A stretch of DNA of 64,000 nt from Kappaphycus alvarezii (lineage: Eukaryota > Rhodophyta > Florideophyceae > Gigartinales > Solieriaceae): the NCBI GenBank assembly GCA_002205965.3, contig NADL03000095.1, positions 62,001 to 126,000 on the forward strand. The letters run 5' to 3'. This document shows, piece after piece, positions 1 to 49,150 of the stretch; the stretch's first letter is position 1, and each line of letters opens with the position of its first letter. The position numbers and the translations under genes were made by a program. The notes beneath the pieces are model-generated. The model was not told the origin of the DNA, did not search any database, and worked only from the letters and a program-made list of their open reading frames with translations.

Positions 1-1663
1 GTCTGCCCTCGTCAACCCAAAGTTGGTCGGTGTTGAGAATAATTGCCTTGTAAGTGTCATCCAGATCTATTAATTAATTTCACAGCTAAATAACTTGCTG
101 TAAGGAATGAATTTGCGCTGTTAGTCCGGAGTGACCTTAGGCGGGCCAGAGTCGTGACATCGACCAGCAGAAAGGGGTTGAAATACAGAACACAAGCACA
201 GATAGGCGACGCAGATGCGGGTGGGTCATATTTCGTCGTCAAATCGAAAATATTGTACTATATGCTGTGCAGGGCGGTATAGAAAACATGAGATCCCCTC
301 AATATACGTTTAATGCTCAATATCATCGAAAGCGTCTAACATGGCGGCGAGTGCAGTGAAATACATGTCATCACGATGATCGTTTGTGCAATCGGCTTGA
401 GTGGAAGTCGCGAAATGATAATTGAGCTCGTTCAAAAGCCATACAGTCTCTTGTTTATCTTCTCATAATTGAGGATCTTTCTCAACTTAAGCGTCATCTT
501 CATCATTCATGAAGTCTGTAAGTACATGGTAGGTTTCTCACAGCTCTCTATGCGTGAGTGGGCATTCCAAATCACATCTGATTTGGAGCAACGATGGCTA
601 GGTTGCTAATTTTGATTTTATTTCACGCAATGACCCTTATCATGTGCACGGAGAAGTTCTTCGTGTCATGAGGGTGGGTTTCCGTTCTCAAACTTGAGAA
701 CGGGTGCCTCGCGTGATCGCTTTGTCCAGACTGCCGTTTATTTCGGTCGTAGGGCATTTTGCATGTGACTGCTGGCTAATCATTGATGTTATTAAAGTCA
801 AGAGTAGAGCTTCCCATTTTCATGAGCTTGATTTGCGGAAGCTGTTGGATGTATTCATGAGGGGAAGTGTCCGACTTAGTGAACGTGTACTTATGTGCAA
901 TGATGCTTTGGATAGGTATCCGGGACAATTCAGTAAGTTCGGTGATCAACTTTCTGAGGTAATCGATCTTGTAGGAGTCCGAATGGAAATTGCTAGGTAA
1001 TGCAGGTCCAAGACACTGATATGCTCTACAATTTTTTTGGGACCAGATGACATATCTGATATGTCATTTTCAGCAATAAAACTGCGCACCCTTAGGGTGT
1101 TTAAAGTTCCTTTCGCTTGCATCCGGCGAGCCCCACTTCCATATTCTTAGTTCATGATGAGGTCCATGTCGTGGAGAGACCTGAAGTCGAGATCAAAGCA
1201 GAGGTCCAGAAAAAACATGCGAGTTGGACCGAAGAAGACCTAAACAAAGAAGTCCTCTTTCTGCGTTCAGGAAAGTTGTGCTGCCTGGCACAAGTGTCAT
1301 ACATGCAGAGAGTTTATTCAATTTATGTAGAAAACTCACCAGAGAAAAGAGTGTCTTTGACTATTGTCTGGGCATAGTTGATCTTGCAATTGTCTTCAAT
1401 ACAATGTTGCTGAAGAGAATTTGGGATACCTTCAGTGACGTCAGCTTAGGCTTGATTTTCTTTCCGAGATTCATCCTTGTGAACGACGCGGTCATCCTTA
1501 GCATTCCGATGGCGGAATTTTTGTCATATCCCAAGCGTGGAGAATGATTGTCCCAAAAGTGCGTTTTTGAATAGCTTGGCCCATGGAGGTTCGAGCAGCT
1601 GATACCTCTGAGTTTTCGAAACAGAATCGGATGGTAAACCAAATATCGTTTCCGTTCTTTCAC
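1..1663 (-). mobile_element. LTR retrotransposon fossil, gag-like region (left copy)
   Basis: Read on the minus strand, this stretch encodes pieces of a Gag-like protein. A recognisable patch reads HKIDYLRK near 950-965, followed by an amphipathic segment, as in the Gag proteins of LTR retrotransposons. The mirror copy at 46,600-48,361 shows the same patch with more context. The element reads outward, towards base 1, so any pol region of this copy lies beyond the window. It is broken, with several interruptions, and looks old (about 80% identical to its mirror copy). Family is uncertain, Copia or Gypsy. Open frames on the opposite strand are probably shadows. Confidence 0.6.
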
Positions 1664-2292
1664 TTACCTAGTGCGCAACTGCAAACATATTAGTTCCTTC
1701 TATTTCATTTATTTCCCTTTATACTGAACATTTTTTCCCACGGAATCTTCATTTGAGGAGAACGAGAACGGAGAATTGTTATGAGAGCAACGGATATTGT
1801 AGAGGTTCTCAATGACCACTTTGCACTACTCACTTCTGGCTCCCATAAGGTAGCACATCCAAATTTGAGAGTGCAACCGTTTGTCCTTCATGAAGTCCTC
1901 CGAGATGTCGCGTGCACGAATATGGTGGTCCAGAACTATAGTAAAGAGAGGAGTTCTCCGGTTTGTTATAAGACTCGATTTGGAAACAAGGGCATCTTAA
2001 AATCTTCTTCGGACAAAAGCCCAGAGCTTCGAGTAAGAGGACTTCCAAGAAGTCCGAAATTGTTTCATGGAACGGTAGTTCAAAATAAGCGCCCGTTCTG
2101 GATTCCATGGGATCGTATATTTCTGTTGTAGTCTTATTTGTTAGTTATACGAGTTAAGGTAGACCCTACAAGAGGGTGAGTCGATAATATTCATCAAGCG
2201 GCTGAGCTACGACTTTAGATGTGTTCGAGTGATTGTTTGGCATTATTTCCTTATCAGGAGATCTTCTGCATGTCTGCTCAGCGTAGGTTTGA

Positions 2293-2440
2293 GTGAAGGT
2301 CGTGATAGAGGGAAAGAAGAGGCGGAGCAAGGGGGAGAGAGAAGGAGCGAACGAGAGAAGGAGCGAAGAGTGTGAGAGAGAAGGAGTGAGGGACCAAGGA
2401 AGAGAGTTGAGAGGAGAGAATTTGGTAAGGTACTTTACTC
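2293..2440. repeat. Purine-rich GA/GGAG low-complexity tract
   Basis: About 150 bases are almost pure G and A on the plus strand, made of irregular GAGAAGGAGCGA-like units. It lies in a part of the left arm (about 2,130-3,180) for which I find no counterpart in the right arm, so it may belong to a later insertion. It codes for nothing recognisable. Confidence 0.7.
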
Positions 2441-2565
2441 AAACAGAATATGGAGGGAGACCGTGGCTTGAATAGACCTCAAGTCGAGTCTACTGGGGCT
2501 TCCAGAAGATCGAAGGAAGTTTCTAGAAGCCACCTAGACGACGGCGAGAGGTTAACCCTAAACCT

Positions 2566-2598
2566 GCTTGAGCTGATCTAGAGAAGATCAGCTCAAGC
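2566..2598. repeat. Perfect 14-bp hairpin
   Basis: GCTTGAGCTGATCT at 2,566-2,579 is followed by a 5-base loop and its exact reverse complement at 2,585-2,598. It lies in the left-arm-only block. The rest of 2,440-3,180 shows no gene I can recognise, although an open minus-strand frame covers 2,700-3,101. Confidence 0.75.
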
Positions 2599-3179
2599 TT
2601 ACAGCACTGTAGCGTGTAATATCGTACCGGTAAAGTTCTATTTTGTACAGTAAACTACAGTAACAGACGTCTGCGAGCTTCTTTGCTAGGTGTAAGCTGT
2701 CAGCAGAGGCGACAGAAAACTATTAAACTAACAGTTCGCGAAGAATAAAAGCGAATCCGGATACGCGCTGCTCCAACTGTACGAGCAGCCCGTCGGATAG
2801 GGTCGCGTCGCAGAGCGCAGATAACTGGAAAACTAGACAATAAAGGATGTGAAACTGGGTCCGAGCTGAGCGAACGGCGGTGAGTTCCAGTTACTTTACT
2901 AGTAGAACTATAACTACGAACCATCAGTGTTTGTAGCCTTGCAACGCTCGCCAAGTTGTCCTTCGGATCACTATTCGTAGTGATACATACAGTACTGTGC
3001 GTTCCAACGACCAGAGCAGCCCCTACAGCGGAGACGGTTTGAGTGATTAAACACTGTAAGTAGGTAGTGTACACAGCTACTGTGATGACAGTGCGGTACA
3101 CTGACTGGTCCGATTAATAGGAAAAGTGCAAACCAAATATTCCAAGTCGGCCACGTGTCGTACTAAAGAGGTTGTACAT

Positions 3180-5060
3180 AGTGGCCGGCTAGTTGATGTT
3201 GAGGTATTCCATTATGGCCGAGAATTGTTTTTGTGCAGCGACCCCGTCGACATGCCCACAGTTGGTCCGCAAGTGGCACGTTTATTGCTTTGATTCCCTG
3301 TCTTTTCAGCATCCTGCGAAGTCAGTGTTTGCACAGCGGTGTGAATCTCCATTCCTTAGTGACTTTAGTTTTTGGGAGACCTTTATCTCCTCTTTGGTGC
3401 CCGCTATGACCGTGTTATGGCCTTGAAGGAGTTTGAGGAAGAAGGAGTCGCCTTAGTCAAGTGGTGTTTTTCTCTGCAGGTGAGGCTGCTTTGTACTCTG
3501 CTGTTCACTACTGAGGCCTTTACCAGTCCGCTTGTCGGATAGCCAAGGAATATGACTTCTGTTAAATGCCTATAATTTGGCCTATATTTACAACCTTGTG
3601 TCTTTTCGAAGCCGGCATGCAAAAAGTCTCAATTTGCAGTGATTTATGAAGTAATATTATTGCGGGTTGTAGGTGATATCATGGTGCATCATTCGTTTGA
3701 AGCATCATACCAGGTGTCCATTGAGCAGATATTACAGCATTTAGGGAACAGCTCTGGGCCTCTTTACGTAGGATGAGACTCCAGGAGCGGTCAATCGGCA
3801 ACTTATCGAGACACTTCTCTAACCTCTTGACATTTGCCATGTGTTCTGGTATCGGGTAATCACTTTCGTCCGACTCGTGGTATCTCATGCTGTCTACATT
3901 CGAACATGGGTTTTCGATGTATTTGGTCATGTAGTTTATCTGCAGAGCCTTTGTTATGTACGATGGATAGTGTATTTTGATCTCTCCGTTTTCCTATGTT
4001 CAACCTGTCATTCCAGATAGTGTAAAAAATTACTGAAAGCGCTTAAAATGGTTGCTGAAATTATTTTGAGCTCAATTTAGAGAGAATCCATGCGCTCCGT
4101 TGGACGACCAATGCAAGAAAGTCTTCTCATGCCAGTGCCGGTAAATCGAACCCATTTCGGTCAATCAAGATTGGCAGGTAGGCAAGGTTTGTCTTCGCAT
4201 CGGCTCAATCTTACATTCTAAGGCCCTTTTCAGTTACTTTATGTAATCATATTCCCTAAATAGGGTTCCAAAAGTTTTCTTTGTAATAATACTCATCCAT
4301 TTTGTGGTTCATAACAGTCCATTGAAATTGGGCATCTGGCAGACTAGTGCATAGGTTTCGTATGTGTATTTTTCCTGCATGAGGCGGATCGATTTCTAAA
4401 TGGGTTTAGCCGTATTGCAGCTGTGCGAGCTGGCAGTAGGCGCACTTTCACCTTTTATTCTTTATAAGCCTTTTACTCTGTATGATCCGCTTTGTAGTAT
4501 GGAATATAGAGCATGTTGGCCACTATCTCGTCATCTCTTGCTGAGCATCGATCTTTTCATTCGAGTGAATCTCTTGGATAGTTCCCTTTGTAGCTCTTTT
4601 TATGATCAGAGTAATATATTTGGTGCTTTTTATTTAATTTGTGAGCAGTTACTTGATTATATGTGCACGCAGAAATTTGGGAACTCTAGTTCATATACCA
4701 GATCTGAAAGCATGGTTTCGGGTTATTTTCTGGTGGTGGATACGTTTTGAAGTGGAAAATGTGGTAGAATGCCTCTTCGAGGGTTTTCTGGCCTTCATTG
4801 GCTTAGAAGGAGGCGATGGTCTCACTTTGATGGCCCTTAAGGGTTTTTTTCCAGTTAGTACGGGTGGAAGTCAACCGCGCTATTGCAATAGACACAGTTC
4901 GTTTGAAGCTAATGTAATGCTACTGAGCAGACTCTATTCAAAGGACTTTGAACTTTCAAATGGCGTGATGGAACTCACGTGCAGATATCCTGCGATCTTT
5001 TTTGCGCTCGCGATGTGCGGATTCTTTCCAAATTTGGCCCAAGGCATGTAGTCTTTTCCA
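3180..5060. other. Conserved but unrecognised arm segment (left)
   Basis: This segment is shared with the right arm (42,780-45,680, reversed). Open frames survive in both copies on both strands. On the minus strand, 3,930-3,679 begins MTKYIEN and contains a DESD.PIPE motif that the mirror copy retains at 44,918. On the plus strand, 4,400-5,051 stays open and includes LKGFFPVST, which is also kept in the mirror copy. Nested position beside a gag fossil suggests it is part of a retrotransposon, but I recognise no catalytic motif and cannot choose the strand with certainty. Confidence 0.4.
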
Positions 5061-5890
5061 TGGGAGGTAACTCTCCGATCCATTTATATGCGGTAGTTGA
5101 CCCTTGGTTGTACGAAGGTGCTTTTATACATATAAAATAAATTTATGAGTACGTACAGAAACTTATTGAAAATATCTAGACTCTAAAAATAAATTGGGTA
5201 CAATGCTGCGTCTCAGAGCGCGAAATCATAGTAATGCTCGGGCAGCTTGCACCTTTTGTAACAATGGTAGGGGTGCTTTCATGAGTTCGGAAAAGATTCA
5301 CTCAGCCAGTGAGTTTTTCTGCGGTGCGTTGGGATTGGTTGGGTTAATTGTAACGCTTAGACGCTTATAAGTTGCCGCAGATCCTTGAATCGGTACTCTC
5401 ACGCGCTGCCTGTGGTTATTTTCTCAGCAATTCTCTGGAGTTGGTTATTTGTAAGTATCATCATATTCCGAGCTCACCTCTCTACATCTTCCCTGCCCTA
5501 GTTGAGTTAATACATGACATATTGCGATTTTACATCCACAAACGAAATTATAAATCGTCTTTTGAGTTTTTTAGCTGTTACAATGGGTCAAAGGACAGCA
5601 GAGCATAATTTCTTGCACAAAAGGCAGTCTGTTGCTTTCCGATACCATGTGCGCTTCCTAAGAACGACAGTTGTGGGGTATCTGCTTGATGATTGCTGGG
5701 AAAGTAATGATCTTCTTTTGTCTATTTTTACAGGGCTTCGCAGGGCCTCGGGTCGATTTAGTTGAAGATAATATTGTTCTTATAGAAAACTCGTTCCCTG
5801 TAAGTTGGCTTGCGCTTGGGATTGGAACGCATTGGACTTTCGAGATAGTATGGTTTATTTAATCACATTCTCCTGTACATGTTCGGCTAT

Positions 5891-6312
5891 TGTCAATCTG
5901 ACCGTGGTTCTTCTATGAGGTAAAATTTTAGGGCTAATTTTTAAAGTAAAGTAATTTTAAGAAAAAATTCGGCGTTCTTGCTGGCCTGTACTTTCAACAG
6001 CAGTTAATTTCGATCAAAACAAACTTTTCAGTAATTTCAGCGCTATTCAAGGCATGAAACACCTTATTCCACTTGATAACCTTCGAATTGAGTGCCATTT
6101 TGCAATATTTTATCTCTTCAAGTACCTGCGGTGAATGCTTTAGCCAAGTGGTGTACAGTCGAAGCCATCGGCTCCTACCTACTTTATAGCCATTTTTGGG
6201 GTACACATTTTAGTAAATATTTACGGCCCCAAAAAACTTTTGGTTTACAGTACAATTGTATATGATAAAGAAGATTGTACATATACGAAGACACCGCTAT
6301 CGCGGATAGACA
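5891..6312. mobile_element. Small inverted-repeat DNA transposon, copy C (left arm)
   Basis: The left end reads TGTCAATCTGACCG and the right end is the reverse complement of TGTCTATCCGCG. The right side is flanked by CTAG and the left side by CTAT, a decayed form of it. The element is about 420 bp and matches copy B at 41,667-42,066 throughout, and copy A at 21,902-22,340 at the termini and around a GAAAAGTTTGTTTTGATCG core. A minus-strand frame at 6,206-5,994 (70 codons) is open here but not in the others. I take it for a non-autonomous transposon with CTAG target duplications. It predates the inverted duplication because both arms carry it at matching sites. Confidence 0.7.
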
Positions 6313-8253
6313 CTAGGAAGCACAATTTGGTTGTTTCGGATACAGAAGCTTTAGGTTGTCTTTTGGCTGGTCTGTGTTTGTCTCCACACGAATTGTCCCT
6401 GAATTTAGCTTCGATTCTTGCCCTATTGTCAAAAACGTATGCCGACTTTTACCCTATCGCTAGTACCCGCTTCTTAACGTTGCGTTTGACGTAGATGTAG
6501 GCTGCGTATTTCTTCATGAGTACCGGACCAGGGAGCTTGTTAATGTCTCCTACTGATACAAGGTTGCTTATCAAGAGCTTATTGTACTGGCATGTACCTT
6601 AATGAGTGACCAACTTGGAAGCATTAGTTTCATTTTTGTGATATGAGTCGGTTTTTTTGTTCAGGGCCGTATAGGTTTGGATTGGTTCAGCTTGAAGCGT
6701 ACTTGATTTGCTCTGTAGTTAATATTGCTTAGTGCGCCCAGAGTAGAAGATGTACTTACTACTGTCTTACGGAGTTAGATTGAAGTTTCATTCGCTTATA
6801 TTCAACTGCAAAATTTTTAGTTTTTCTTTCCTCCAGTTTGTGTGGCTTACGATTTTTTTGATAATATTTGCTCCATTGACTTGATCATTTGTTTGAGTTG
6901 CATGATTTTCCAGAGAGTAAACAAAGTATGTTGTTTTCGCTCCCGCGAAACCTGGACGGCTTAATATTATCTGTATCTCTGGTAATTGCTTCGGTGACTA
7001 CCAACTGAGTCGCCATCACCGGTGCTGTTTCTTGGTAATGATGCTGATGCCTATAGTTTTGTGTTGTCGCATGCTTCAACCGAGTATAAGCCCTAAACCT
7101 TTTGGAGTCTATATTGGGGCTCCATAGAATGCGGCGCAACTCTAGAGCCAGTCGTACTCTGATCATCCTTTTATTTACTGAAGCATGAACGAAAATTTTG
7201 TTCTTTCTGAGCTTTTATCCCGGTAGTTCGCGGCCATCATTTTCGTTCCAAATTTTTGGTTCCGTTCCATGTAGTTCCCTGTTTATCGTAGCAAATGCCT
7301 CCCTTTACTTTTCGAACCGCTGGCACGACGAAGAATATATATACTGCTTTGGCGTTTAGGACAGTCTGTCTTTATTCCTTCGACATTCTCAAAGGACATT
7401 ATTTCTGTGTCTGTGTATGCTTTTACTTAGACCTTGAGAATTTGTACATGACATTCGTGTCGCGCTGTATTAGCACCATTTTTGTGGCAAATATAGGGGC
7501 TGAATCTTAGCGGAAGGTGGTTAGCTCCAAGATTACTTCACTTCGGTAGAAATTTTTCCATGGTGATTGCTGTGCAAGAAGCCTTGGCCTCGTGGAAGTT
7601 CTTTGTTTTTCTGGTTGTTTGTAGGTGGAAACATGCAAGTAAATAGCCGCCGTAACTCATGATTTTGCAACTCAAGTTCTAAAATTTGTCCCCATGTTGG
7701 ATATTTTATTCACGGAGCTAGGTAGTTTTCCACTGATTATCAATTGATTGCTGACGTGGGATGGCTTTTTGCAGCATTTTCTGCCTTTTTTGTTCGTTTG
7801 CATTTTTTATTGGTTATTCGAAGAGTCCATAGTTTGCTTGACTTGTCTTCAAATATCCAACAGGACAGAGCTGGTTTCATGGCTGTGCTTACATCTGTTT
7901 CTCGGCGTCAGGTTTTGAACTTTTTACCCTGCAGCTTAATAACCTTCATCGTTAGTCTTGAATTTGCTGTTGCGCTTTCGTAGCGTATGGCCCAGAATCA
8001 ATTAATGTGACAAGCTGTACCCACGTCACTCCAGACGTTGACCCCGGTGGCTAGTGTCATACTGGAAAACTGCCAGCTACCTTTTCACGTAAACTCAAAC
8101 GCTGTCCTGATGAAACTATACTGAAGAAATCTAATTGGTGTACAATAAAATACAGTACACTGGTGACAAATGCCATAGGATTCATGTGACGATATGACCA
8201 TTAGTATCCTTTTAGTACACAACATCCCGCCAGTGGCCCTCAAACGCCATGAG

Positions 8254-8397
8254 CACTGTAGGGAAGCACTAGTGCCACTTTACACTGTAAAGAGACACCA
8301 GTGCCACTATTACACTGTAAGGAGACACCAGTGCCACTATCTCACAGTAAAGATACATCAATGCAACTATTGCACTGTAATCTGACATCGATGCAAC
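8254..8397. repeat. 30-bp tandem repeat, about 4.8 copies
   Basis: The unit is close to CACTGTAAAGAGACACCAGT followed by GCCACTATTA, repeated at 8,254, 8,283, 8,313, 8,343 and 8,373. Units diverge progressively to the right. The period of exactly ten codons makes a plus-strand frame (8,194-8,385) encode a ten-residue repeat around TVKRHQCHYY, but the His and Cys spacing matches no zinc finger I know. I read this as DNA-level repetition, possibly in an LTR or leader. Confidence 0.85.
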
Positions 8398-8664
8398 ATG
8401 TCAAAAGCACACAGCCAATCAGACGAAGCCATTATGGATACCTGGCATACTCCTAGATACTTTCCAGGCAAGGCCAATCAACAAGTTCCTTATGGATTCT
8501 CGCCAACTCTACCATCATGGGCAGTACAGTCAGTCTCGCCGTAGTATGCTAGTTGAACTCTCAGAACCTTGTATTATTATGCCCCTAGGTCCGTTCTTCT
8601 AGAATACTTTTGAACTTGGTATTGTTTGCGTATCATTCATTGTCACTCTCGTTGAATGCTTCTC

Positions 8665-8672
8665 TATATAAA
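8665..8672 (+). promoter_or_regulatory. TATA-like box
   Basis: TATATAAA lies just downstream of the 30-bp repeat, in a CT-rich setting like those in the LTR promoters at 15,464 and 44,169. An ATG three bases later is too close to be the start codon of a transcript driven by this box, so the open frame from 8,675 is not supported by it. Confidence 0.35.
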
Positions 8673-11600
8673 CCATGGTCAGAAGCTACTATCTGCTCAC
8701 CGGAAGCTTCAACCATCACTTCAACCATCGATCACCTCTCTTCTGCCCAGAACCCCACAATGAAACCCCTGTGATTATGTTTGGCCACATTTGTATAGTA
8801 AAAAATGAGACCATTCGAAAAAACGTGTACACAAAATTTGAAACAGTCTACGGTTTTAGCCGAGACATCTATCGCCAAAATTAGGGTTCTGAAGTAGATT
8901 CTTAAGACTGAGTGATACCATATATTTTTTTGAGTTAAACAAATAGAAAGTTCCACTGACGCTCATCTTAAAACCAATTACCCCCTCTCGCAGCAATATC
9001 ATCTAAAAAAATTTATCCTTGAATGTCTAGAAAAAGACAGAGCAGGAACTACCGATTGAATCAAAAGGCCTATATGAACGGTTATCTATTCTTTGATTAG
9101 CAGAAACCTTTTAATACATTCCTACAGCATGGGCAATGTGGAGTGATTTAATATTTGAAATATATGATCGAATGTGGCCCAGTATATCCTCCAGGGTGAC
9201 CAGTAGTTCCTACTGTAAAATATCGGCTACAAAATCTGAAATGCGCTGGAAAAAGTTCATTTTATTGCAGGGGAAGTAATGTTTGGAGCATGAACTGGTA
9301 TCAGCTGAACCGATGCTGTTTAGAAAAACACAAAAGAACATGCTTTTTCATGCTTGTATTATTTAGGAAATAAAATGGGAGTCCCTTTGGTTGCAAAAAG
9401 ATAATTGATTAAATCAGTGATTCATCTGAAATTTCATCGACTGGACAACTTACCCCCTCCAAAGACCTTATTAAATTCTAATTATTTAATTATTTTAAAT
9501 TATTTTTATATTTTATAATTATATTTTAAAAGAGGTAATTTCTATGCTAATGAAGAACCTAACGCAGAACGTCTACAAAATCAGGCGGTATCAATGAAAA
9601 CCTTTACACACTTAATGAGCCATCCTGCTGTAAAGGAAAAAACCACACATAACGGCGACTCACCATTCTCCAGCATTTCCCTGTTTTCTCTTTCATGAGT
9701 GCATCGAAGCTTCTCAAACTTTGCACTGCTCAACTAAGCCCTCTCATCATAGTGTCCCCTTTCGGGATAAATGCTCGTCAGCATCGGCTTCGATCGACGT
9801 ATAATGCCGAGAATTCGACTTAAAATGCTCCTTCTTCCCTTTAGAAACGCAGCGGTGCGTTTTAAATATGATGAAGAGCTCAAATATCTCTCTCTCAGAT
9901 TTTTTGAAAGTGGAGACTTTTACAGGAATCTCGGGACTACGCCAAAGCTGAGGCAAATTTTCTGGACAGAATCTAGAAAAGGCCTCGTTTTGCAAAATAT
10001 CCATCATGCAGTGAGAATAGCTCCAACATCTACTTTATTTCTTCGATTGCAAAAAGAACTCTATTTTCACCAAGACAAGCTCAGCTAGGAATCCATTTTT
10101 GGGCTCCTCATTAACGAGCAATTAATCCGCAAAACTCACTTCTTAAATTTACTCGAGATTCGCAGACTAAAAAATCACTAATTTAGGCGAGCTGATTTCA
10201 ATGATAAGAATAAGGCGTTCACGCAGCTCATGAAAGCATTGGTTCTTTGTCGTAAGACTATTACGCTAAGATAGAGGGTAATTTCAGATAGTGGAAACAG
10301 CGACAGGGATCAGAAATTACAGCCATGTCTGTGACAGAAGGCAGTGCGGTTGTTGATTAGCACTGACTAAGGCCTAAAGGATGTAGAAAGTATGGCTTAT
10401 TACCTCGTGAAGGCATATCAAGACCTATTTCTCTTGATCATGAATCTCTAAAAGTAGCCTAATTGGATCAAGGTTGATGTTCCAAGCACTAAGAATCGTA
10501 ACAGCCTGAGACCGACCGTAAGTGCCATTTTTGTGTCCAGAAAAGTAATTGGAACACAGTTTCCACAAAATTATTCATCGAAATGACAAGCTCCTAGATA
10601 GCGGGAAGAAGGGTCATTCTGAAACGATTTTTTGAAAAAAGTAAGGAATTAGTTTTGCGTTGGCAAGTAAGGCTTTAATCGAGAGCTAAAGATATGAAGA
10701 GATATAATATAGCGAATTGTTGATAATGTATTGGTGCTCGATAGAGGTTTGTGTGTCTGATGCAGTTCTAAAGAAAACTGAGCACGTCGAGCATCATTTT
10801 ACAGACACTCAAGGAGCACTGGGAGTGCCGATTTCAAAATACTGAATTCTGTGATCCCAGTGCTGTCAAAAGTGTATCTCGGGCTTGAATCTCCTCACTA
10901 ATCCAGCGCCGTAGTCGGCAGCGAGGAAGAGAGATTCTCTCAGGAAACTGAAAAAGAAGAATACCAGTAAGTATGAGCCGAAGACCAACAGAAAGAAGGT
11001 TGAGAGGACTTAAAAGTTTTTCGCCTCCCTGGCTTTGTATATAAGTCAGACACTTATAATTTCTTGGTTGATGACCGGTAGAATCTTTATTTTGGCTGGT
11101 TTATTACTCGTGAGTAATCAATTAACACGAAGAGGACATAAAAGGATTTCTCGGTGGCGCAGCTGTGGAAACAATAAAAGAGTATGACCAAAATAAAAAA
11201 CCATGCCTGCTGATTGTCAAAAAGAGTGATTATTTTAGCAATTGGTGCGATCTGTTGTGCACTGATTCTACGCCGGATATTTTCTCCGACCTATTCGCAA
11301 GAAATATAAAATTGCGCCAGATTCCGTAAGCTGTGGCACTATAGTCATGACAGGTTTCAGATGCAAAAAGGATGGCATCCTGAGGAAACTCCCCATCGAT
11401 TGATACTTATTAGCTAATGCAGGCACTAGTACTCACCAAAAATCGGACCCGTAAGGGCCCAAAAGCCGAGAATAGTCGAGAGTAAGCTCGATGCTCTTTA
11501 TTCTTTGCAAATTGGGGACGAAGTTATGGTAGAATAAAAAAAGAGTGCTCAGGATCTACACGGCCTGCGCTTGATCAAATTAATTCGGAAAAGACGAGAA

Positions 11601-11966
11601 TATTCGTTCAAATATCACTTGGTATTTCATATGCTCTCTAAAGCAGATATTTGGAGGCCATTGTATCTACAGTTGCCGCATGCGCAACTAATTCTTTCTC
11701 TCGATTCACCTTTCTGTTCAAACAGTAAGTAATTCGATATGTCTCTCCCAAAGCCGTATTTTCGATGACGACAGATGGCACTGCACCTTTCCGTCGCGCT
11801 TCACAACAGCTGAGAATCCTGCGAATACAGTCAAGCTTCAAATGTCCGTTTCTTATCCGTTACATACACATCCTCAGTGACTTGGGGGCTGATTTTATTT
11901 AATAAATATATATTCACCTAGTAGACGGAATGAACCGATTCTATCGAAACATTCATTCTATTTTCC

Positions 11967-14280: not shown

Positions 14281-15463
14281 ACTCTCATCGTTACAATTTC
14301 TTTCATTTGTCGAAATTATTTCGATGTGATCTCTCTCGTCGATTAGTGTTACATGTGTCGCTCAATCCCTTCTTTCGTCACGCAAAGTATTGATCTTTCG
14401 TTCTGGAAAGAAAAAATTAATCTTCCTCTATGAGTATCAAGTGATGTTAATTTTAATCTTCATAGCACTCTCTTCCTCTTTAGACTCTTGATCAGTCAGA
14501 TTACCTCTCTTACCCTTAATATCCTTGCAATTATAAGAACCTCAACTTTTATCGTCTTCTGATAATTTCTTCTTTCAAATAGGCTTAGAAGACAGCTCAA
14601 TGGTTCGTGCATAGTCAGAAACTGGCTACTGAGATAATTTTCTCGCTTTACCAAGCTTTTTTAATTTGAGAAACATCTCCGTTAACTTCCTTTGTACTAT
14701 TTTCGTATAATAAACAATAGAAACATGTATAAATCACTGTTTTCTACCCAAAGAGCATGAAGAGATTTGAAATTGAGGGTTAAAAAGTGTGTTGGGAAAG
14801 GAACGGCGATAAGTGGGTGGTGGAGATGTGGACAGTTGCTTTCCAAGCTGAGGCACGCAAAAATGGCGGTTCGGAGGTTGCGGGATGGAGATGTATAAAT
14901 CTGAAGTTGTGAAATGGATGTGGCCCAGAGAGAGGTGTGTTGACGAGTGGCGTTGACGTATTGAGAGAAGAAGCAAAACAAACGAGTGTAGGATGTGGCT
15001 ATACCCATCATGTCGAGTCGAAACTCGGAACGGGCCGAAACGCATGCGAAATTCTGTGAACAATTCCGCTGGCTACTGTATTGTACTGTATTATACATTG
15101 CACAATCTTCTGTACAGTTTGTGTTGTATCGCCGACAGTGCGAACAATATTCGACCACAATTTTGGATCCTGAGAGCCATGGCCTCATATTTGGATCGCG
15201 TGAGCCATATGCAGTAAGGTACAGTAATTGGACACATATTTGGCCCTTGGAGCCATATACAGTTTTGTAGATGGCCTCAAATTTGGATCACGCGATCTAT
15301 GTGCAATAGCTTGCATGGCTCTGGGCCACGTATTGTGAACATCGCACTACAACTCGATGCGAAAATCACAAAAAACTGGCTTTAAAGTATCGTAGAATCT
15401 TCTTTGTATCTTTATTCTAGGTATTCAGTACTATCTAGCGCATTTCGATATTTCTGAGTTGTC

Positions 15464-15471
15464 TATATAAA
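15464..15471 (+). promoter_or_regulatory. TATA box of LTR
   Basis: TATATAAA is followed at the usual distance by a G-rich start region and then the leader described for the surrounding LTR fossil. Its placement about 415 bp before the predicted LTR end fits a U3/R promoter. Confidence 0.5.
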
Positions 15472-21782: not shown

Positions 21783-21901
21783 TTTTGGTTAAATTTTGCG
21801 ATGTTGACAAACTTGTGAGATCTATTGAACATTTGAGGTGTAAACTCCGAAGTTTTGAACTGCGAAGTTTTGCACGGTTGACTACCTAAGGGTGCTACTA
21901 G

Positions 21902-27590: not shown

Positions 27591-27599
27591 ATGTAGACC

Positions 27600-31624: not shown

Positions 31625-31629
31625 ACTAT

Positions 31630-37600: not shown

Positions 37601-37644
37601 TAAAGACATAGTATGAAATAATTAATGGTCTTCAGAAAATACTT

Positions 37645-38600
37645 ATGCAGGCTAATCAGAGTGACGGTACCAGATTTTTCGGTTCAGTTAAGGCCACTCC
37701 AGTTTTAACTTTTTCTGAAAGGAATTTAGTCAGAACATGTGAAAAGTTATCTGGTTTCTTTTATTCTATCTGGACGTACGGCAAGCTTTGCAACTACTCA
37801 GATGGGAGAATGCTTTACATAGTATTATTTTTTCGGGACTTGGCTGCTATTTGCATGACGCGTCTATAGAAGTCTGGGAAAGTATGGGAACAAGGCAAAG
37901 ACTGTCAGTCACTTACGAGTGGCTTAGGTTAAAGAATTTGTGCAGGCCAATGAGACGGACCCGACTCGGATTAAACCCATTGATTTTTTTCTGAGAGAAA
38001 ATGGTTGCATGAGTGATAAAATAGCACGCTTTGAAAACCTCTTCATGCTCTTTGGGTACGAAACAGTGATTCATACATTTTTTTTAAAAATATATACGAA
38101 AATAGTACAAAGGGAAGTTAAAGGAGATTTTTTCTCAAATCAAAGGCGGTTGATAGAGCTGAAAATTAATCTATGCAGCCAGTCAATGACTATGTATGAA
38201 CCCTGGAGCTGTATTTTAATGTAATTTGATAAAAGAATTCATCAAAAGACGTTAAAATTCGAGTTTTTATAAGTGCAAGGATATCAAGAGTAAGAGAGGA
38301 AATCTGAGTGAACAAGAGTCTAAAGAGGAAGAGAGTTCTCTGAAGAATATATATACCATTAATTGATACCAAGAGAGAAAGCCGTAATTTGGTCTTTTCA
38401 GAAAGAAATATCGGTGCTTTAATTTTCGAAAGAAGGGACGGAGCGATAAAAGTAACGTTCATAGACAAGAGAGATCTCACGGAAAGAATTTCGACAAGTC
38501 GCAAAAGAATTTCGACAACTCGAAAAAGAAATCCGACAACTCGAGAATGAATTTCGACAACTACAAGAAGGATTTCGACAACTCGAATAAATAGTAGCAA
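37645..38600 (+). mobile_element. LTR retrotransposon fossil, Gag-like region (right)
   Basis: The plus strand carries Gag-like protein pieces, including MQANQSDGTRFFGSVKATPV at 37,645 and AWRFENL-like helical segments between 37,940 and 38,220. They lie directly upstream of a coiled-coil repeat and the RNase H fossil at 38,697, in the order expected of an LTR element with most of pol missing. The part after 38,030 has a mirror copy at 14,290-14,775; the part before it does not. The element is broken in several places. Confidence 0.45.
38486..38590 (+). repeat. 21-bp tandem repeat, five units, coiled-coil coding
   Basis: Five units of GAATTTCGACAACTCGAAAAA type run without gaps from 38,486 to 38,590. 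At 21 bp each unit is one heptad, of the form EFRQLEK, so on the plus strand they encode a short, regular coiled coil within the Gag-like fossil. The mirror copy near 14,308-14,335 holds only about one unit, so the array expanded here or contracted there after the arms separated. Confidence 0.85.
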
Positions 38601-38609
38601 TGAGAGTGG

Positions 38610-40918
38610 TTTGCTGATATTTCACGTCTAATCAACGATTTTTCTCGCACTAAGTCCTCTAAGTGGAACGAGCTACAGGGAGAAAATCCTTAGGAGTTGA
38701 AGAAGAGCTTAAAAACTGCACCGGTATTGCGGAATCCATCATCAGGTGAGATATTTTTGTCAACTACTGATGCTTCCAAGTATGCAGTAGCGGCAACTCT
38801 GGAGCAGACAGGTGAGTCTGTCACATATTTATACGATGGAATTTTAGAGACAGAAACAAGGTGGGACACAAGTGATCAGATATTATTGGCTGTTTGATCG
38901 CTTTGCATGAATGGGAAGTTTATCTTAAGGATAGTACTATTATTAATAATAAGGATTACGAACTTAGGAAGCACTTAAGTCGCTTGGAACAACTGATATG
39001 TACCGCAATTGTTATTTTGTTTTAATTATAGACCATTTACAATGTAATATAGTTCGCGGTTAAGTAGCTCTGTAGGTCAAAACGTAGAACAATGGCACAA
39101 GGCATATTTGTTACGACATGCTTATTTTCGCTACCACATTTATGTGGTATTTTCAATTTCTTCCTTCCATCTAACGTTATAATACACTTAGAGTGGTTGT
39201 GTTAAGCTATCTTAGTTTTGGAATTGGATCCCAGTAATTTAGTCGTTCCGCTGGCTCGGATGCTTACAAGTCCAAACTGAAAAAAAATTGTAATTAAACG
39301 AAATTCGTGTATAGAACATGAAAACTGAGCTGTATCCCTATTGATGATCATATATATAAGTTTGTTCATTTTACATTGCGTCCATTTTAGTACCTTAAGG
39401 AAGAGTCTATTACAATTAAACATTTAAGAATTTTTTGCTCGCTTTAAACATTTAATTCATCGCGAATATATTAGGTCAATACGAATCTCTCGGAGGAAAC
39501 TGTGGCTTTTGCATCAACTGAAATGCACTAAAAGGAGTAAACACTTCAGCATATACCAACATACCTGTTCTAGGTTGATTTTATGGATCCTATCGGCCTA
39601 CAAAAGGAATTTAGATTAAAAAATAAGCAGTGGTACAAGTATTGTATGTTTTAGTTGCTGTACAACAGACCTCATCAAGGCAGTCGAATCACAGAATTTT
39701 CATTCAAAGGAGCATATAAAAGTGACACCTACTACCATAAATATTTCAATTTTGGAACGAAATCGAGTATTAGGACGGAAACAAATGAATCAAAAAATAT
39801 ACGGACTTTACTCTATGACAATGATGAATACTTAAAATTCTCTCAATCATTCTTATGGGTCTTACTCCAAAGGTATGTATTTTGATAAATTTGTAGTTGC
39901 GGGTGTAAGAGTGAGAGAAACTGATTATCTATCGGAGCTAAAGCAGGGTAAGCATGCGAAAATATATTCTTCTAGTAGTTTAAATATTTAGGGGATAAAT
40001 TGGCATTAATAATAGATTTTTACCATAAAAAATTTTGATTTAGGCATGGGTACAACTATGACCGAAGCCAAAATTCTAGATATAGCAAAATTATGGAGGT
40101 GTAGTGTTGTAAATCAATTATAGAAAACTTTTTCTGAGATTAAAAATAAGCAATGATTCACTTCTCCAATGGTAAGTATTGATTCAGATACTTTTAAGCT
40201 CTGTAATATTACAATTTGAACAGGTAAGATCAGTATTTGAAATGTTAAATCAATGACACCCGTAAAATCAGTGAAGTACCAAGATGAGATCTCATGGTTT
40301 GAGGTAAGCTTTTAATGATTTACTCTATATTTTTATTATGGTTCAACTTGACCTTTAGTCCTTACATGAAACAAGAATTCCGCTATCTATTTTTAATGAC
40401 ACCAAAATACGTTTGCTGTTATCTTCAAGATTTTACAACTTAAAAAAGCTCTATGATTCATGGTAGCTCTCTGTTAATGTTTTCGTCAAGCAAAATACTT
40501 TAATAACTAAAAGAAATCCTACAGAAGCCTTGAAGATTATCACGAAATATGATGGACCGAATCATGCTCCCACAATTAAGTTCTTTCCTGATGACCAAAA
40601 ATGGTAATTTTTAGGTATAATTGGTGAACAAAGTAGATAAAACAAAAAGGCAGTCTTGAAATGACTGCGTAGTGTTTCCCGAGTAAATGCATGCAACTGG
40701 GAATACTTTTGCATGTAGTGCAAGAATGAGGTTCTCATTAAAAAGAACGGACCCAAAAGCCCTTTTTTAGCTCAGACAAGTTAAATACAGTGAAATACAG
40801 TTATATACCTTACATTTTTAAAGCGCGCAGAGCAAATTTCCCCCGAAGATTACATAAAGAGTGTTACTTCCTCTATTTTCACGTCCTCCTTAATCCTCCA
40901 GTTGTTGTGACGGCGGGC
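38610..40918. repeat. Near-identical core of the inverted duplication (right)
   Basis: This tract pairs with 11,967-14,280 at about 97-99% by eye, while sequence on both sides pairs at roughly 75-85%. It contains the RNase H fossil and then about 1.9 kb of AT-rich sequence without a recognisable gene. Confidence 0.85.
38697..38960 (+). mobile_element. Gypsy-type LTR retrotransposon fossil, RNase H domain (right)
   Basis: This is the mirror copy of 13,980-14,225 and nearly identical to it. It shows the TTDASKYAVAATLEQ signature and, further on, a HEWEVYLKDS patch that corresponds to the end of Gypsy RNase H domains. The reading direction is outward, away from the palindrome centre. No integrase follows; the next 2 kb are AT-rich and unrecognised. 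The element is broken. Confidence 0.75.
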
Positions 40919-41666
40919 AAAAGATCGAAATTTCCGATGTACTCGGTTCAACACAAAGCCACAGGCATCATCATCATTACCAAACGAAACAAAACCGGTG
41001 ATGATGACTCAGTTGGTAGTCACCGAAGCAATTATCAGATATACAGATATTATTAGAGCCACCCAGGTTTCGGGAGTAAAACAGCGACATACCTGGTTAA
41101 GTCTCCGGGAAATCACGCATCTCACACAGATGATCAAATCAATGAGCAAATATTATCGAAAAAATCTGTAAGCCACTCAAAATGGAAGGAGGACAAAGTA
41201 AACATGTTTTCAGTGGACTACAAGGAAATGAAACTTCGTTCTGACTCGGCAAGAACAGTAATAAGTACATCCTCTACTCTAGGGCGCACCCAAGCCACAT
41301 TAAATACAGACCAAGCCGATTAAACTGTCAAGCTAAACCAATCCAAACCCACACAGCTCCGAACAAAAAAAAACTCAAACTACAAAACTGAAACCAATGA
41401 CTCCAAAGTGGTATCTTGTATCAGTAAGAGACATTAACAAGCTCCTGGGTCCGGTACTCATGAAGAAATACGCAGCCTACATCTATGTCAAGCGAATTTA
41501 AGCAACGGATACTAGCGATAGGGACGAAATCAGCATACGGTTTTGACACTAAGGCTAGAACCGAAGCTAAATTCAGGGCACATTCGTGCTGAGACAAATC
41601 CAGACCAGCAAACAAGACAAATCAAAGCATATGTGACCGAACCAACCCGAATTGAGCTTCCTTAGT

Positions 41667-42066
41667 GTCTATCCGCGATAGCGCTGTCCTCAAATGAGGA
41701 CAAACTTCTTTAAAAAAAATATGTGCTTTAATGAAAAGATTTTTGGGTAAACGTAAATATTTACCATAACATATATTCTGAAACATAGAAGTAGAGTAGG
41801 GAGGGGCTCGATGGCTTCAACTCTACCTCTTCGGCTGAAGCATTCACCTGCAGGTACTGACAGGATAAAATGTGGCAAAATGACACTAAAATCGAACGGT
41901 TTCCAGTGGAATAAAGTAGTTCGTGCCTTGACCAGCGCTAAAATTACCGAACGTTTCTTTTGATCGATCTTCACTACTGTTGAAAGTATTTTAGCAAAGA
42001 ATACTTTTTCTTAAAAATATTATTCCTAAACTTTCCCCTAATATGAGGACAACGGTCAGATAGATA
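41667..42066. mobile_element. Small inverted-repeat DNA transposon, copy B (right arm)
   Basis: One end reads TGTCTATCCGCGATAGCG followed by GTCCTCAAATGAGGAC, a near-palindrome. The other is the reverse complement of TATCTATCTGACCGTTGTC with a decayed ATATGAGGAC. Flanks are TTAG and CTAG. It is 400 bp and aligns with copy C at 5,891-6,312 as part of the arm pairing. No intact frame is shared among the three copies. Confidence 0.75.
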
Positions 42067-42779
42067 CTAGTCCACCAAGTATAGGAGAATATGGAGAAAA
42101 TAAAACATACTATCTCGAAACTGCAATTCGTCCCAACTCCAATCGCAGGCAAACTTATAGAGAAAGTATATTCTATAAGAACAGTATCATCTTCAACTAA
42201 ATCGACCTAAGGCCCTGCAAAGCCCTACAAAAATGGCCAAAAACGAGATCATTCCTCTCCCAAAAATTCTAAAGCATATTACCCCACAAATGACGTTCTT
42301 AGGAAGCGCATATGGAAACCCGAAGCAAAAGTTTGTCCTGTGTGCAGGCATTGCGCTCCTCTTTCCTTGGGCCTACTGTAACAGCTATAAAACTCAAAAA
42401 CGATTTTAAATTGCGTTTATGGATGTAAGATCGCTAGAAGTCATCTATTACTTCAACTAGGACAAAGAAGATGTAAAGAGGTCCGCTCGGAATATGATGA
42501 TACTTACAAATAACCAACACCATAGCATTACTGAGAAATTTACCACAGGCAACGCGTGAGAGTACCGATCCAAGGATCTGCGACAACTTCTTAAGCGTCT
42601 TGGCGTTACAATCAATCTAAAAATTCCATAAAAAACCGCGAGTAAACGCACTAGCACAGTGAATCTTTTCCGAACTCTCAGAGCAAGCCTATAACTGCTA
42701 TACCAAGCGCAACTGCCCGAGTATTACTATCATTTCGCGCTCCGAGAAGCAGTATTTATGAATGAAATCAACTTTCTTA

Positions 42780-45680
42780 CAGCCAGAGATCAATCTCCGC
42801 ATACTAAAGGCATCGGAGGGTCACCAAGCATGGTATGTCTTGGGCCGAATCGGAAAAGAATCCGCACATCGCGACTGCGACAAAGTTTGCAGGTTATCTG
42901 CACGTGAGCTCCTACCACACCATTTAAAAGTTCAATATCCTCACAGCAGACTCTCCACAGTAGCAGTACAGTAGCTTCAAATGAACTGTGCCTATCGCAA
43001 TAGCGCGGTGGACTTCCAGCCGTGCTGACCGGAAAGAAACCCTTAAGGGCCAACAAAGTCAGGTCATCGCCCTTTTCTGAGCCAATCAAGTGCAGAAACC
43101 CCTCGAAAAGGAATTCTACGACATTTTGCAACTTTGAAGCACATCCACTGCCATAAAATACCCGAAGCCATGCTTTTGGATCTTTTATATGATCCAGAGT
43201 TACAGAAAATCTACAGTGCACATGCAATCAAGTAACTGGTCGCAAATGAAATAAAAAGCACCGAATCTATTACTGTTATCATAAAATGAAAATACAAGCG
43301 GAAGCACCAAATGAAACACTCGAATGAAAACATCGATTGTAAGCAAGAGAAGACGAAATGGTGGCCAAAATGCCCTATATCCCATGCTAGAAAGCGGATC
43401 ATACAGATTGAAAGGCGAAAGTGCGCCTACTAGTAGCTCGCGCGGCTGAAATACGGCTAACACCATTTAGACATCGATCAGCTTTCATGCACGAAACATA
43501 CACTCAAAAAACCCATGCACTAGTATGCCAGATGCCAAGTTCAATTGGGCCTTTTATGAACCAGAACAAGGATGGGTATAATTGTAGTGCAATTAGCACT
43601 CAAACTGTACTGCCATCAGCAGAGCTGATTTTGGTGATCATTTTTTGACCTGATTCAATGCTAACCAGCAGGCACTGTGTGGAGTGTAATGGCAATTTTC
43701 GCTTGTCGCCCACTATTCTTCCTGGTACTGTATGATCATCCCAGAGGGCTGTAGACTTGCAATTGGACCACTCAGCCACAAAATTGGACCTGATATTTTC
43801 GCCGGTGAAAGGCACTTATTAGGCCAAGTGCCGAATATACTCATCTCTAACTTGGATCTTTCTTACTTGGCCGAGCCTAACTTCACTCACCCCGCCGTCG
43901 TAGATAACCCTAACCTAGCTAATTAGTATTTATACCTACCTGGCCACTAGGGCCCCAGATTAAACAGCCACCTCGTTGTTGACTCTGAACTTGACTCCCA
44001 ACTTCCGCCTTTGCAGAAACCGTGCCAACGGCAACTTTGGCTATAGCCACGTTTATCCGCCCGGGTCCCCCTTTTTATTTCCCCCCTATCTATCCAATAT
44101 TATTATACCCCTTTTTTTGTTTGTTTGTGATATTTACTTACACTTGGCGCCACGGACTCCGGCGTCCATATATAAATAGGAACTTCAAGGTTGTCGTTGG
44201 TGACAACATTCTTATCTCTAAAGGAGATTTTTAGCACTGCTGACCCACTATACATCTTCTTTGTCCAGTATTACACTCTGGTGTCTACGAATCTTTTGAA
44301 ATCGATCCTTATCAAGTTTCTAGCATTCCGCGGACCACGTTCCGGCCTTGCAACCCGGAGGACAGGTAAACCGTCCAGCCGTCCAAGGAATCACCCCCGC
44401 TCTTCCCGCTCCACTTCTCTTCGCCACCGGTGAGCGGTGCTACTGCATCGCATGGTGCTTCAAGAGAAAGAGGGATAGCAAAAACTCCGTGGGTATTCGT
44501 GCGTGTTTTTTAGTTCTCTCATTGTCTGAAGGAGTTCCGTTCCCAAACGAGAAGAACTGCGCACCGCGCATTGCACTACAATAATTACAAAGAAAACTTT
44601 CGGAACCCTATCTAGAGAATATCATTACCTGAAAATAATTGAAAAGGGCCTTAAAATCTAATACTGAGCTGATGCAGAGACAACCCCTGCCTATAAAGCA
44701 GTCTTGATTGAGCAAAATTACCTCAGTTTACTGGCGCTGGCAAGAGAAAACTTACCTGTGTTGGTCATTCAAAAAAAGCGCACAGATTAACTCTAAATTG
44801 AGCTCGACAATAAATAAAACAACCCTTTCAAGCGCCAAAGTACCTTTTCGCACCATTTGGGATGACAAGTTAAACACAAGCCATCGTACATAAAAAAGGC
44901 TCTGCAGATAAAATACATGACCAAATACATCGAAAACACATGCTTGAATGTATACAGCATGAGATACGACGAGCCGGACGAAAGTGACCACCCGATACCA
45001 GAAAATATGGCTAAATGTCAAGAGGTTAGAGAAGTGTCTCGATAAGTTGCCGATTGACAGCTCCTGGAGATCGCATCCTACGTAAAGAGGCCCAGGGCTG
45101 TTATTCATATCCCCGAAATGCGGTAATATCTGCTAAATGGACACCTGATATGATACTGCAAACAAATGATACACCATAGTATGACCTACAGACTGCAATA
45201 ATATTCCGCCAGAAAATCACTGCAAATAGAGACTTTTTGCATGCAGGCTTCGAAAAGACACAAGGTTGTAAATATAGGCCAAATTATAGGCATTTAACAG
45301 AAGTCATATTCATTTACTATCCATCAAGCCGAATGTTTAAGGCCTCAGTATGTGAGTAACAGAGTACGAAGCAGTCACAAGTGCGGGGAAAACACCACTT
45401 GATTAGGGCGAATCATCTCCTTCCTCAAACTACTTCAAGCCCCAAAAACGTTCAGAATTGACACCAAAGAGGAAATGAATATATCTTCCAAACCACAGGC
45501 ACTAAGAAATGGAAAACCACACCTCAGCGATAACAATAGCATTGTGGGATGCTAAAAATAAAGTAAATCAAATCATGACACGTGCCACTTGCGGACCAAC
45601 TGTAGGCGTATCGACCGGTCCGCTGTACAAAAACAATTATCGGCAATAAAGAAGTACATCAATGTCAATCAACCGGCCAC
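42780..45680. other. Conserved but unrecognised arm segment (right)
   Basis: This is the mirror of 3,180-5,060, split by the solo LTR. Minus-strand frames at 43,466-43,200 and 43,227-42,790 correspond to the left arm's plus-strand frames at 4,400-5,051. Around 44,918 on the plus strand the MTKYIEN start and PIPE motif of the left arm's minus-strand frame reappear. I recognise no domain. Nesting between gag and RNase H fossils favours a retroelement origin. Confidence 0.4.
43583..44580. mobile_element. Solo LTR, 998 bp, with 5-bp target duplication
   Basis: The insertion starts TGTAGTGCAAT and ends with its exact reverse complement ATTGCACTACA. It is flanked by ATAAT at 43,578-43,582 and 44,581-44,585. 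The left arm has the unoccupied site near 4,270, where the flanking sequences join directly, so the boundaries are well supported. A TATATAAATA box lies at 44,169. Its TG...CA ends and 5-bp duplication are those of an LTR retrotransposon reduced to a solo LTR by recombination. It entered after the inverted duplication. Frames inside it are not genes. Confidence 0.9.
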
Positions 45681-46599
45681 TATCTAGCTTGATATTCCCC
45701 CGAATTTCACCTGAGCATTTACTGTGCGAAGCGAGCCATCAGAAGAATTTGTAGGTACTTAAGAACTACTTATTTGATTTGACGCACTGAGGTCATATAC
45801 CGTAATGTGGACAATATGAAAGAGTAGGCGAAAGTATAGGTTGATGGTGATTTTACCATCAAACTAAATATCGAACGACGGTCAGCCCCTTACGTATCGA
45901 GATATAGGATGTGATATAAAAAATCAGTACCTTGCGTACAAATTTGAACGGGGGGAAGAAATTTGGGGTTATTTAATATCTGAAATACATGGTAGGTTGT
46001 ATGCGTGAATTTCCTACAAGGTGACTAGCATTACTTCTTTAGTTTCCCTAAAAAGCCTGCTCAAGGCCCCCAGCAGACCAGCTTGTCTAAAGATGTCACA
46101 GAAAACTACAGCACCCGAAAGATTTATAAAGCGCCCCGCTTTTGCTTAATTTACGCCCCTCAGGCTGTATGTTTCTTGAAAACTTCGCTTCTCTATTCTA
46201 TTGCTTGAACGCGAATAAGCGATGATTTGACTGTATTGAGCTTATTTAGGCGAAAAATGTGTACTAAATTTGCATTCAACCGTCTAAGTTGAGATAAATG
46301 GTACCTAATCTTTAGTTGCTTTGCATACGCAGGTATTCTTTTTCTAAATTTTTTGGTAAAAATTGATGAATCGCGATGAACATGTGCATATTTACAGTAG
46401 GGCAATATCCATATAATGATGAATTCTACAATACCGTTGTTCTCATAACATTTCTCCGTTCTCTTTCTCCTCAAATATAGATGCTATGAGAATAAATTAT
46501 TCAAGAAAAAGTAAATGGATAAAAGTGAAAGAACGAATAATTCCGCAGTTGCGCACTAGGTAAGTGAAGAACAGAGACGATATTTGCACCACAATCCGA

Positions 46600-49150
46600 T
46601 TAAGTTTCGAAAATCCTTGTATCAGCTGATCGAACTTACACGGACCAAGCTACTCAGAAACGCACTTTTGAGACACTCATTCTTCCCGCGCTTGGGACAT
46701 GACAAAAATTCCGCCCAGGAATGCTAAGGACCATCGCGTCGTTCATAAGATGAATCTTTGAATGAAAATCAGGCCTAGGCTGACGTCGATGAAGGTTCCG
46801 CGAATTCTCTGCAGCAGCATGGTATTGAAGACAGTCGCAAGGCCAACTACGACCAGAAAATAATCAACGACACTATTTTCTCTCGTGAGCTTTCCATAGG
46901 CATCGAAGAAACTCTCCGCATGTATGGCATCTGTGCCAGGCAGCACGACTTTCCCGAACGCAAAAAGAAGATTTCCTTGTTTAGGTCTTCTTAGGCCCAG
47001 CCCGAATGTTTTTTCCTGGACTACTGCTTTGATCGCGACGTCAGGTCTCCCTACGACATGGATCTCATCATGAACTAAGAAGTAGTTCTTGGTCTTGTCA
47101 ACAGGGAAGGCTGGGTTTCAGCAATCTGTACCGCGGCGTGTCTCTGTAACAGGATGTCCCTATTGGGGCAACTCTCACATCCAGAACTGCAGCTTTGGCA
47201 TGTTCTGCAGAGATATGGAAGCGGCGATCGCCGGCTGCAAGTCAAAGGAACTTTAGAAACCCTAACTTTGCGCAGTTTCATGGCTGAAAATGAAATATCA
47301 GATGTGTCAACAGGTCTCGAAAAGCTTGTAGAGTATATTAGTGTCTCAGCCCCGCAGTGCCCTGGCAACATCCGTTCGGACGCCCACAAGATCGATTACC
47401 TCAGAAAAGCGGTCACAAAATTTAATGAATGCTCCTAGATGCTTATCCAAAGCATCACTGCACACAATTACACGCTCACTAAGTTTGACACTTACCTTCA
47501 TGAATACATCCAACAGTTTCCGCAAATCAAGTCTATGAAAATGGGAAGCTCTACTCCTGACTTTAATAACATCAATGATTAGCCAGCAGGCAGAGCCAAA
47601 ATGCCCTACGACAGAAATGAACTGCAGTTTGGACGAAAAGGTCATGGGAGGCACCCGTTCTCAGGTTTGAGAACGGAAAAACATCTTCACGATACGAATG
47701 TCTTCTCCGAGCACACGCTAAGGGTCTTTGCGTGAAATGAAATCACAATTAGCAACCTGGCCATCGCTGCTCAAAATCAGATGTGATTTGGAATGCCCGC
47801 TCACGCATAGAGAGCTGTGAGAAACCCACCATGTACTTACAGACTTCACAAATGGTGAGGATGACGCGTAAGCTGAGAAGGTTCCTCAATTCCAAGGCGA
47901 TAAACAAGAAACCGTATCTCTTTTGAACGAGTTCAATCCCCATTTCGCAACTTCTTCCACTCGATCCGAACGAATAAACGATCATCGAGATGACATGGAT
48001 TCCACTGCACACGTCTCTATGTACGACACTTTCGATGATATTGAGCACTAATTGAATATTAAGAGGATTTTATGTGGTCTCTACCGCCCTGAAAATCCTT
48101 CATTACAAGATTTCCGCTGGACGGCGAAATTTGACCCATACTCCTCTGCGTCGCCCATCCGTGCTTTCATTTTGTATTTTTCCCCCTTTCTGCTGGTCGA
48201 TGTCACGAATCTAGACCTTTTAAGATCACTGCGGACCACCAGTGCAGATCCCTGGTCTTACAGAAAGTCATTTAGCTGTGAGATTTCGTTTGGCTCTGGA
48301 TGACATTTAAAAGACAAGTATTCTGAAAACCGACCAAATTTGAGTTGACGAGGGCAGAAAGTGTGTGCGTTAGACATATCCACCGCTTTTGTACCGTTAA
48401 GGCTCCCAGAATCGCATGGCACCACAATTTCATGTGTGCGATAAAATTTATGAAAATTTTCGGATTTTCCTGAAATTTTACCGAAGATATGCTGGACGAA
48501 AATTCCAAAAAAATCCTGCATGTACACACCTGACGAAAAATGCTCTATTTTTTGTACGCCCAATGAGTTTGTACGAGTGACAGAGTTTTATTACAGTAGA
48601 TTCTTTCACTACCTACTCACAGTGTTTACTCGCCGCATCCTCCGCCGCTGTAGGGGCTCCTTTGGTTTTTGGAAAGCACATTGCTGTGTCAAAATTCGTG
48701 AACATCATGGCAATAAATTGTGAGCAGTATCTTGAGCCACAAATTATTAGACAGCTACAGTACGGATGCTGGCATTGGAGGAAAGACGGCAATCTCGATA
48801 CTGTTTGGATTGTTTTAATCAAAATATTTTCTTTTAGTACTAGTTTAAGGTATTATGCAAATTAGAGCTGTCGATACAAACCCCTGTCTAAAGCTCCAGC
48901 CTGACTGGGGCATCAACAACCATTTAAAGATTCGATTACGTGGTTTCCGGCAAGAACCCACACCTGGTATATCGACATAGGTTTGTCAATGTTGCGATTT
49001 CTTCTAATCCGAAAGAAGGTCAAAATATCTATTATATTTGCCTTCTTGTCCGATTGCGAACAGGGTGTAACATTCTGTGTTACTCTAATCCTTTGGAAAA
49101 AAGCCCCGTGCCCATGAAAATGGCCTCCAGGGCGACTGCTAGACATTAAC
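46600..49150 (+). mobile_element. LTR retrotransposon fossil, gag-like region (right copy)
   Basis: Read on the plus strand, Gag-like pieces appear in order: a helical segment with IFSRELSIGIEETLRMYGI near 46,870-46,930, then at 47,154 MSLLGQLSHPELQL, a long stretch with SDVSTGLEKLV, and HKIDYLRKAV near 47,390. That last patch matches the left arm's minus strand. Sequence after 48,361 continues without a left counterpart in the window and may be the start of protease or pol, but I see no clear motif there. The element is old and broken at several points. Confidence 0.6.

Follow-up and report, generated by a model that had tools for sequence, protein, structure and literature searches.

The 64,000-nucleotide stretch of the Kappaphycus alvarezii genome analysed here (contig NADL03000095.1, positions 62,001 to 126,000; hereafter the window, whose own numbering is used throughout) contains decayed retroelements and has a low coding density. 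A eukaryotic-type protein kinase gene (Pfam Pkinase) was found in shifting frames at 55202-55982, and the frame shifts are probably due to one-base assembly errors. The longest of the three open frames of at least 200 aa in the window, encoding 258 aa at 21006-21782, has no Pfam match; together with the frames at 19853-20910 it bears a possible resemblance to a piggyBac-type transposase. Two decayed retroelement-like copies are placed in inverse orientation, 57969-59750 against 63255-61480, with 66% identity at the DNA level and 53% in the protein alignment. A second inverted pair, 18663-19027 and 51705-52069, is 365 bp long and 93% identical, and a nearby frame (50612-50926) shows a weak zinc-knuckle match under the Pfam cut-off.

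Self-comparison of the window reveals that the left stretch 1-14768 pairs mirror-wise with 48358-38035 on the right. Five collinear inverted blocks were identified by BLAST, namely 2-1144 with 48358-47213, 1144-1830 with 47081-46396, 3175-4290 with 45686-44581, 4285-7066 with 43583-40949, and 11931-14768 with 40950-38035. Their E-values range from 0 to about 1e-165, so that chance is excluded for the arm match. The left arm (forward strand) consists of an outer part at 1-7066, alignable over 2-1830 and 3175-7066 at 80-82% identity in ungapped columns and unshared at 1831-3174, and an inner AT-rich part at 11931-14768 (34% G+C). The right arm (reverse strand, 38035-48358, 10,324 bp) likewise has an outer part, 40951-48358, and an inner AT-rich part, 38035-40950, the latter being the partner of 11931-14768. 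The spacer of 23,266 bp occupies 14769-38034, with an AT-rich block beginning at about 31.5 kb; apart from short repeat pieces, nothing of any length in the window pairs with it in inverse orientation. The mirror axis lies at about 23.9-24.4 kb for the outer blocks and at about 26.4 kb for the inner blocks, because 4,864 bp at 7067-11930 are present only on the left. The match of the right arm ends at 48358, where its partner has reached base 2; the outer end thus lies outside the window, and the inverted repeat may extend further, beyond the window start. These coordinates confirm the geometry given in the original prediction, opposed arms of 14.8 and 10.3 kb around a 23-kb spacer with the left arm running off base 1. 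They also agree with its claim of a 48-kb palindrome in so far as a large, old inverted duplication is present, but 23.3 kb of it, about half, is unpaired spacer. The arms are collinear copies in opposite orientation, as expected of an inverted segmental duplication, and the structure is best described as an inverted repeat with a wide spacer and diverged arms, for which palindrome is too strong a word.

The two arms have diverged considerably. Outside a near-identical core described below, differences occupy 1193 of the 6296 aligned columns (18.9%), counted block by block and leaving aside 1831-3174 against 46395-45687, 47081-47212, 43578-44580, 7067-11930 and the 21-bp array at 38498-38572. 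Over ungapped columns, the four outer blocks are 82.0, 81.3, 82.2 and 79.9% identical and the inner tail 78.5%; the differences in the four outer blocks (1049 of 5510 columns) correspond to about 0.22 substitutions per site after Jukes-Cantor correction. The non-core columns also contain 58 one-base gaps and 21 longer gaps. It had been argued that large inverted duplications are unstable and usually trimmed quickly, so that such an old pair would be surprising. This argument is weak, since inverted repeats are less able to cause rearrangements the further apart and the more diverged they are, an inverse correlation stated in PMC10164571. That a pair with 19% divergence and a spacing of 23 kb has survived is therefore no paradox; the title of the same paper names widely spaced, divergent repeats as a potent source of rearrangement in long single-stranded regions.

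Each arm also carries an insertion that the other lacks. A 1000-bp insertion at 43582-44581 is specific to the right arm. It has perfect 12-bp terminal inverted repeats and is bordered by TAA at either end, and the corresponding place in the left arm, near 4285-4290, represents the empty site; the three-base duplication is reminiscent of the Harbinger group. The 4,864-bp stretch at 7067-11930 is confined to the left arm and accounts for most of its greater length, whereas the right arm is continuous at 40949/40950. By eye, a possible AACCGA(GTA) duplication can be seen at the edges of this stretch.

A further insertion is shared by the two arms, in agreement with the nested elements that had been predicted to be common to both. 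A candidate element of 410-450 bp, which we take by its inverted end repeats to belong to the class of miniature transposons, occupies the same place in each arm and occurs once more in the spacer. Its ends are alike in opposite orientation, CTAGTGTCTATC... and ...GATAGACACTAG. The left copy lies at 5884-6315 on the forward strand (profile-match limits; end repeat of 28/34 bases at 5887-5920), the right copy at the homologous position 41662-42073 on the reverse strand (end repeat of 32/34 bases at 42037-42070), and the spacer copy at 21895-22343 on the forward strand (E = 1.3e-16; right limit uncertain). On either side of the element, the flanks of the two arm copies match one another, the score being reached in 0 of 300 shuffles. 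The body of the spacer copy matches the arm copies (0 of 100 shuffles), whereas its flanks match neither arm: their scores were reached in 200 and 106 of 300 shuffles on the right, and in 290 and 256 of 300 on the left. A one-sequence search extended the match of the spacer copy with the right arm beyond the element end by about 95 bases, where alignment confidence is low. Since the flanks of the arm copies match each other and not those of the third copy, the insertion of the miniature transposon appears to predate the separation of the arms. A second end-like sequence (26/34 bases) was noticed at 22412-22445, shortly after the spacer copy, which may have a nested structure or exceed the length given here.

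The most conspicuous departure from the overall divergence is a core at 12254-14288 in the left arm (forward strand), with its right copy at 38600-40642 (reverse strand; limits set by hand from alignment gaps). Only 9 of its 2031 columns differ (0.44%), identical runs reach up to 528 bases, and there are 16 one-base gaps and no longer gap. The substitution density is about 43-fold apart between the core and the rest; the associated P = 1e-141 is descriptive, because the core limits were taken from the same data. A maximal-segment scan places the core at 12049-14288, where 23 of 2232 columns differ, with a score of 368; when the non-core columns were shuffled 500 times, the score never exceeded 12.2. 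The original prediction had named a core at 11,967-14,280; such a core exists, its limits being corrected here to 12254-14288 or, by maximal segment, 12049-14288, but its meaning as a sharp block of near identity within diverged arms had been missed. Within the window, a collinear inverted diagonal extends well beyond the core as first delimited, so that the prediction withstands the dot-plot criterion that it had set for its own refutation. Diverged homologous arm sequence is found on each side, at 80% identity from 11931 to about 12040 and at 78.5% over 14307-14768. A block of excess identity with diverged homologous flanks on both sides is a pattern that gene conversion would leave, and the core is a probable conversion tract. 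Its inner edge coincides with a tandem array of five 21-bp copies at 38483-38587 (reverse strand), of which fewer copies are present at the matching place in the left arm. The outer edge, about 120-325 bp from the large left-only stretch, is graded, with identity rising through 80, 91, 92 and 99% along 11931-12250, and this unclean edge counts against the conversion account. A second block of raised identity at 3548-3993, weaker than the core (35 of 420 columns differ; score reached in 0 of 500 shuffles), could reflect older conversion or constraint.

The sharp inner edge of the core and its composition (34% G+C, against 43% in the outer arm) could also be expected if the near identity were due to strong constraint, or to a young element that had entered each arm at the corresponding site. 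We regard this explanation as very unlikely: the identical runs are long, no frame of at least 90 aa is present inside the core, although one-base errors could hide one, and Rfam gave no match. Moreover, homologous AT-rich arm sequence runs past both edges, so that neither composition nor edges mark a separate inserted unit. It is also conceivable, at a very low probability, that the AT-rich core and the adjacent AT-rich block (about 31.5-41 kb) form a functional chromosomal element, for instance a centromere-like one bordered by inverted repeats, in which selection would favour the repeated homogenisation of this segment alone.

One-base gaps, in contrast to substitutions, are equally dense in the two zones (58/6296 outside and 16/2031 inside the core, P = 0.68; 0.8-0.9 per 100 columns), and for this reason most of them look like assembly errors. 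The same gaps and the kinase gene in shifting frames indicate an error-prone assembly, and one might ask whether the inverted pair is itself an artefact of assembly or sequencing. This is highly improbable, since a foldback artefact would be expected to be near-identical throughout, whereas the arms differ by 19%, and the 16 one-base gaps between the two cores argue against one of them being a pasted copy of the other.

The arms appear to be non-coding. In overlapping windows of 210 columns with at least 10 mismatches, codon periodicity was detected at P < 0.05 in 2 of 54 cases (0.045 and 0.039) and at P < 0.01 in 0 of 54, so that coding arms are not supported; a weak signal might be obscured by gap errors, and mismatches in the core are too few for this analysis. 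Ten arm frames gave no Pfam match at E 0.1, ARAGORN with bacterial settings gave no tRNA, and Rfam gave no match at gathering scores. A phage origin of the core is likewise not supported, as it has no match among phage records. Among viral contigs no relative was confirmed with the kinase fragment, a retroelement frame, a 24-base core pattern or two-sequence alignment, nor was any among prokaryotic genome contigs with two-sequence alignment. The lack of such relatives says little, because the window is eukaryotic in look, with its kinase, decayed retroelements and low coding density.

The main rival explanation for the arms is that each is a copy of a large dispersed repeat, either a long non-autonomous transposon or a mobile composite, that the two came to be opposed by chance, and that conversion of the core drew on the partner or on a further copy. 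Paired repeats are indeed common in the window, as seen in the inverted pairs 18663-19027 with 52069-51705 and 57969-59750 with 63255-61480 and in several short pairs, four of them direct, and one part of the arm, the miniature transposon, has its third copy in the spacer. A transposon-bearing element moved as a whole could have brought the miniature transposon to both places. However, six arm-segment profiles searched across the 64 kb (E up to 0.01) found nothing beyond the arms but this third copy at 21895-22343, with a marginal match at the same position on the other strand (E = 0.009), and by eye no recognisable terminus is present at 14768/38035. We consider the dispersed-repeat explanation possible but doubtful. 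The idea of a single very large transposon with long inverted ends is not supported, in that the frames scanned yielded no match to a Pfam transposase, but it may still apply, as the outer left end would lie off the window. The presence of a miniature transposon within both arms favours composite DNA, although a mobile element carrying it may also have given rise to the arms.

Taken together, we consider it rather probable that the locus represents an old inverted segmental duplication, composed of transposon-bearing and apparently non-coding DNA, which was later homogenised in part by ectopic conversion or crossover. The arms, the flanked block of identity and the shared and unshared insertions can be read directly from the alignment, and from them we infer in what order the events took place and that conversion was the mechanism. 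The miniature transposon would have inserted first, and a stretch of at least 10 kb containing it would then have become two copies in opposite orientation; composite DNA was thus probably duplicated in inverse orientation long ago. The copies would have diverged to about 0.22 substitutions per site while acquiring separate insertions, 1.0 kb on the right and 4.9 kb on the left. Recently, 2.0-2.2 kb in one arm would have been overwritten from the other, most likely by arm-to-arm (ectopic) gene conversion, or alternatively through a crossover that flipped the spacer as well. The donor of the core could also be a third copy elsewhere.

Ordinary inverted segmental duplications and transposon pairs have diverged copies and later insertions, like the present arms, but differ from them in that here a near-identical block lies within old arms. 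In palindrome P6 of the human Y chromosome, the mean minimum conversion tract was inferred to be 2068 bp and inversions are rarer than conversions (PMC3723533). The length of the present tract comes close to this value, which speaks in favour of conversion. P6 resembles the present pair in its inverted copies and a conversion tract of about 2 kb, whereas human Y palindrome arms are more than 99.9% similar and the present arms differ by 19% outside one tract. The near identity throughout the arms that characterises a maintained palindrome of the sex-chromosome type is absent, as given by the 1193 differing columns of 6296. Long inverted repeats in Caenorhabditis, thought to be actively maintained, also combine inverted structure with sequence homogenisation; they are nearly perfect and involve gene pairs and intergenic sequence (PMC1803023), whereas the present arms are apparently non-coding and mostly diverged. 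The process is a known one, of which this locus is an unusually clear example. It looks like a natural case of conversion between inverted copies long after their divergence, in which the arms provide the background divergence, the shared transposon and the arm-specific insertions a relative clock, and the tract its size and boundaries. The case would carry more weight if the tract proved to be repeatedly refreshed or functional.

Several smaller features were also observed in the window. Measured in steps of 500 bp, the AT-rich block at 31700-41000 has a G+C content of 28-39%, compared with about 43% in the surrounding sequence, and its longest frame is 143 aa; the left arm has only the outermost 2.8 kb of this block. 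A weak reverse-transcriptase match under the Pfam cut-off lies at 62858-63328, and a piece at 28303-28500 matches the ends of the two retroelement-like copies. A decayed repeat at 2755-3100, within the unshared left stretch 1831-3174, is found again just outside the right arm at 48576-48691 and 49625-49847, where the right-side copy has about 0.9 kb extra.
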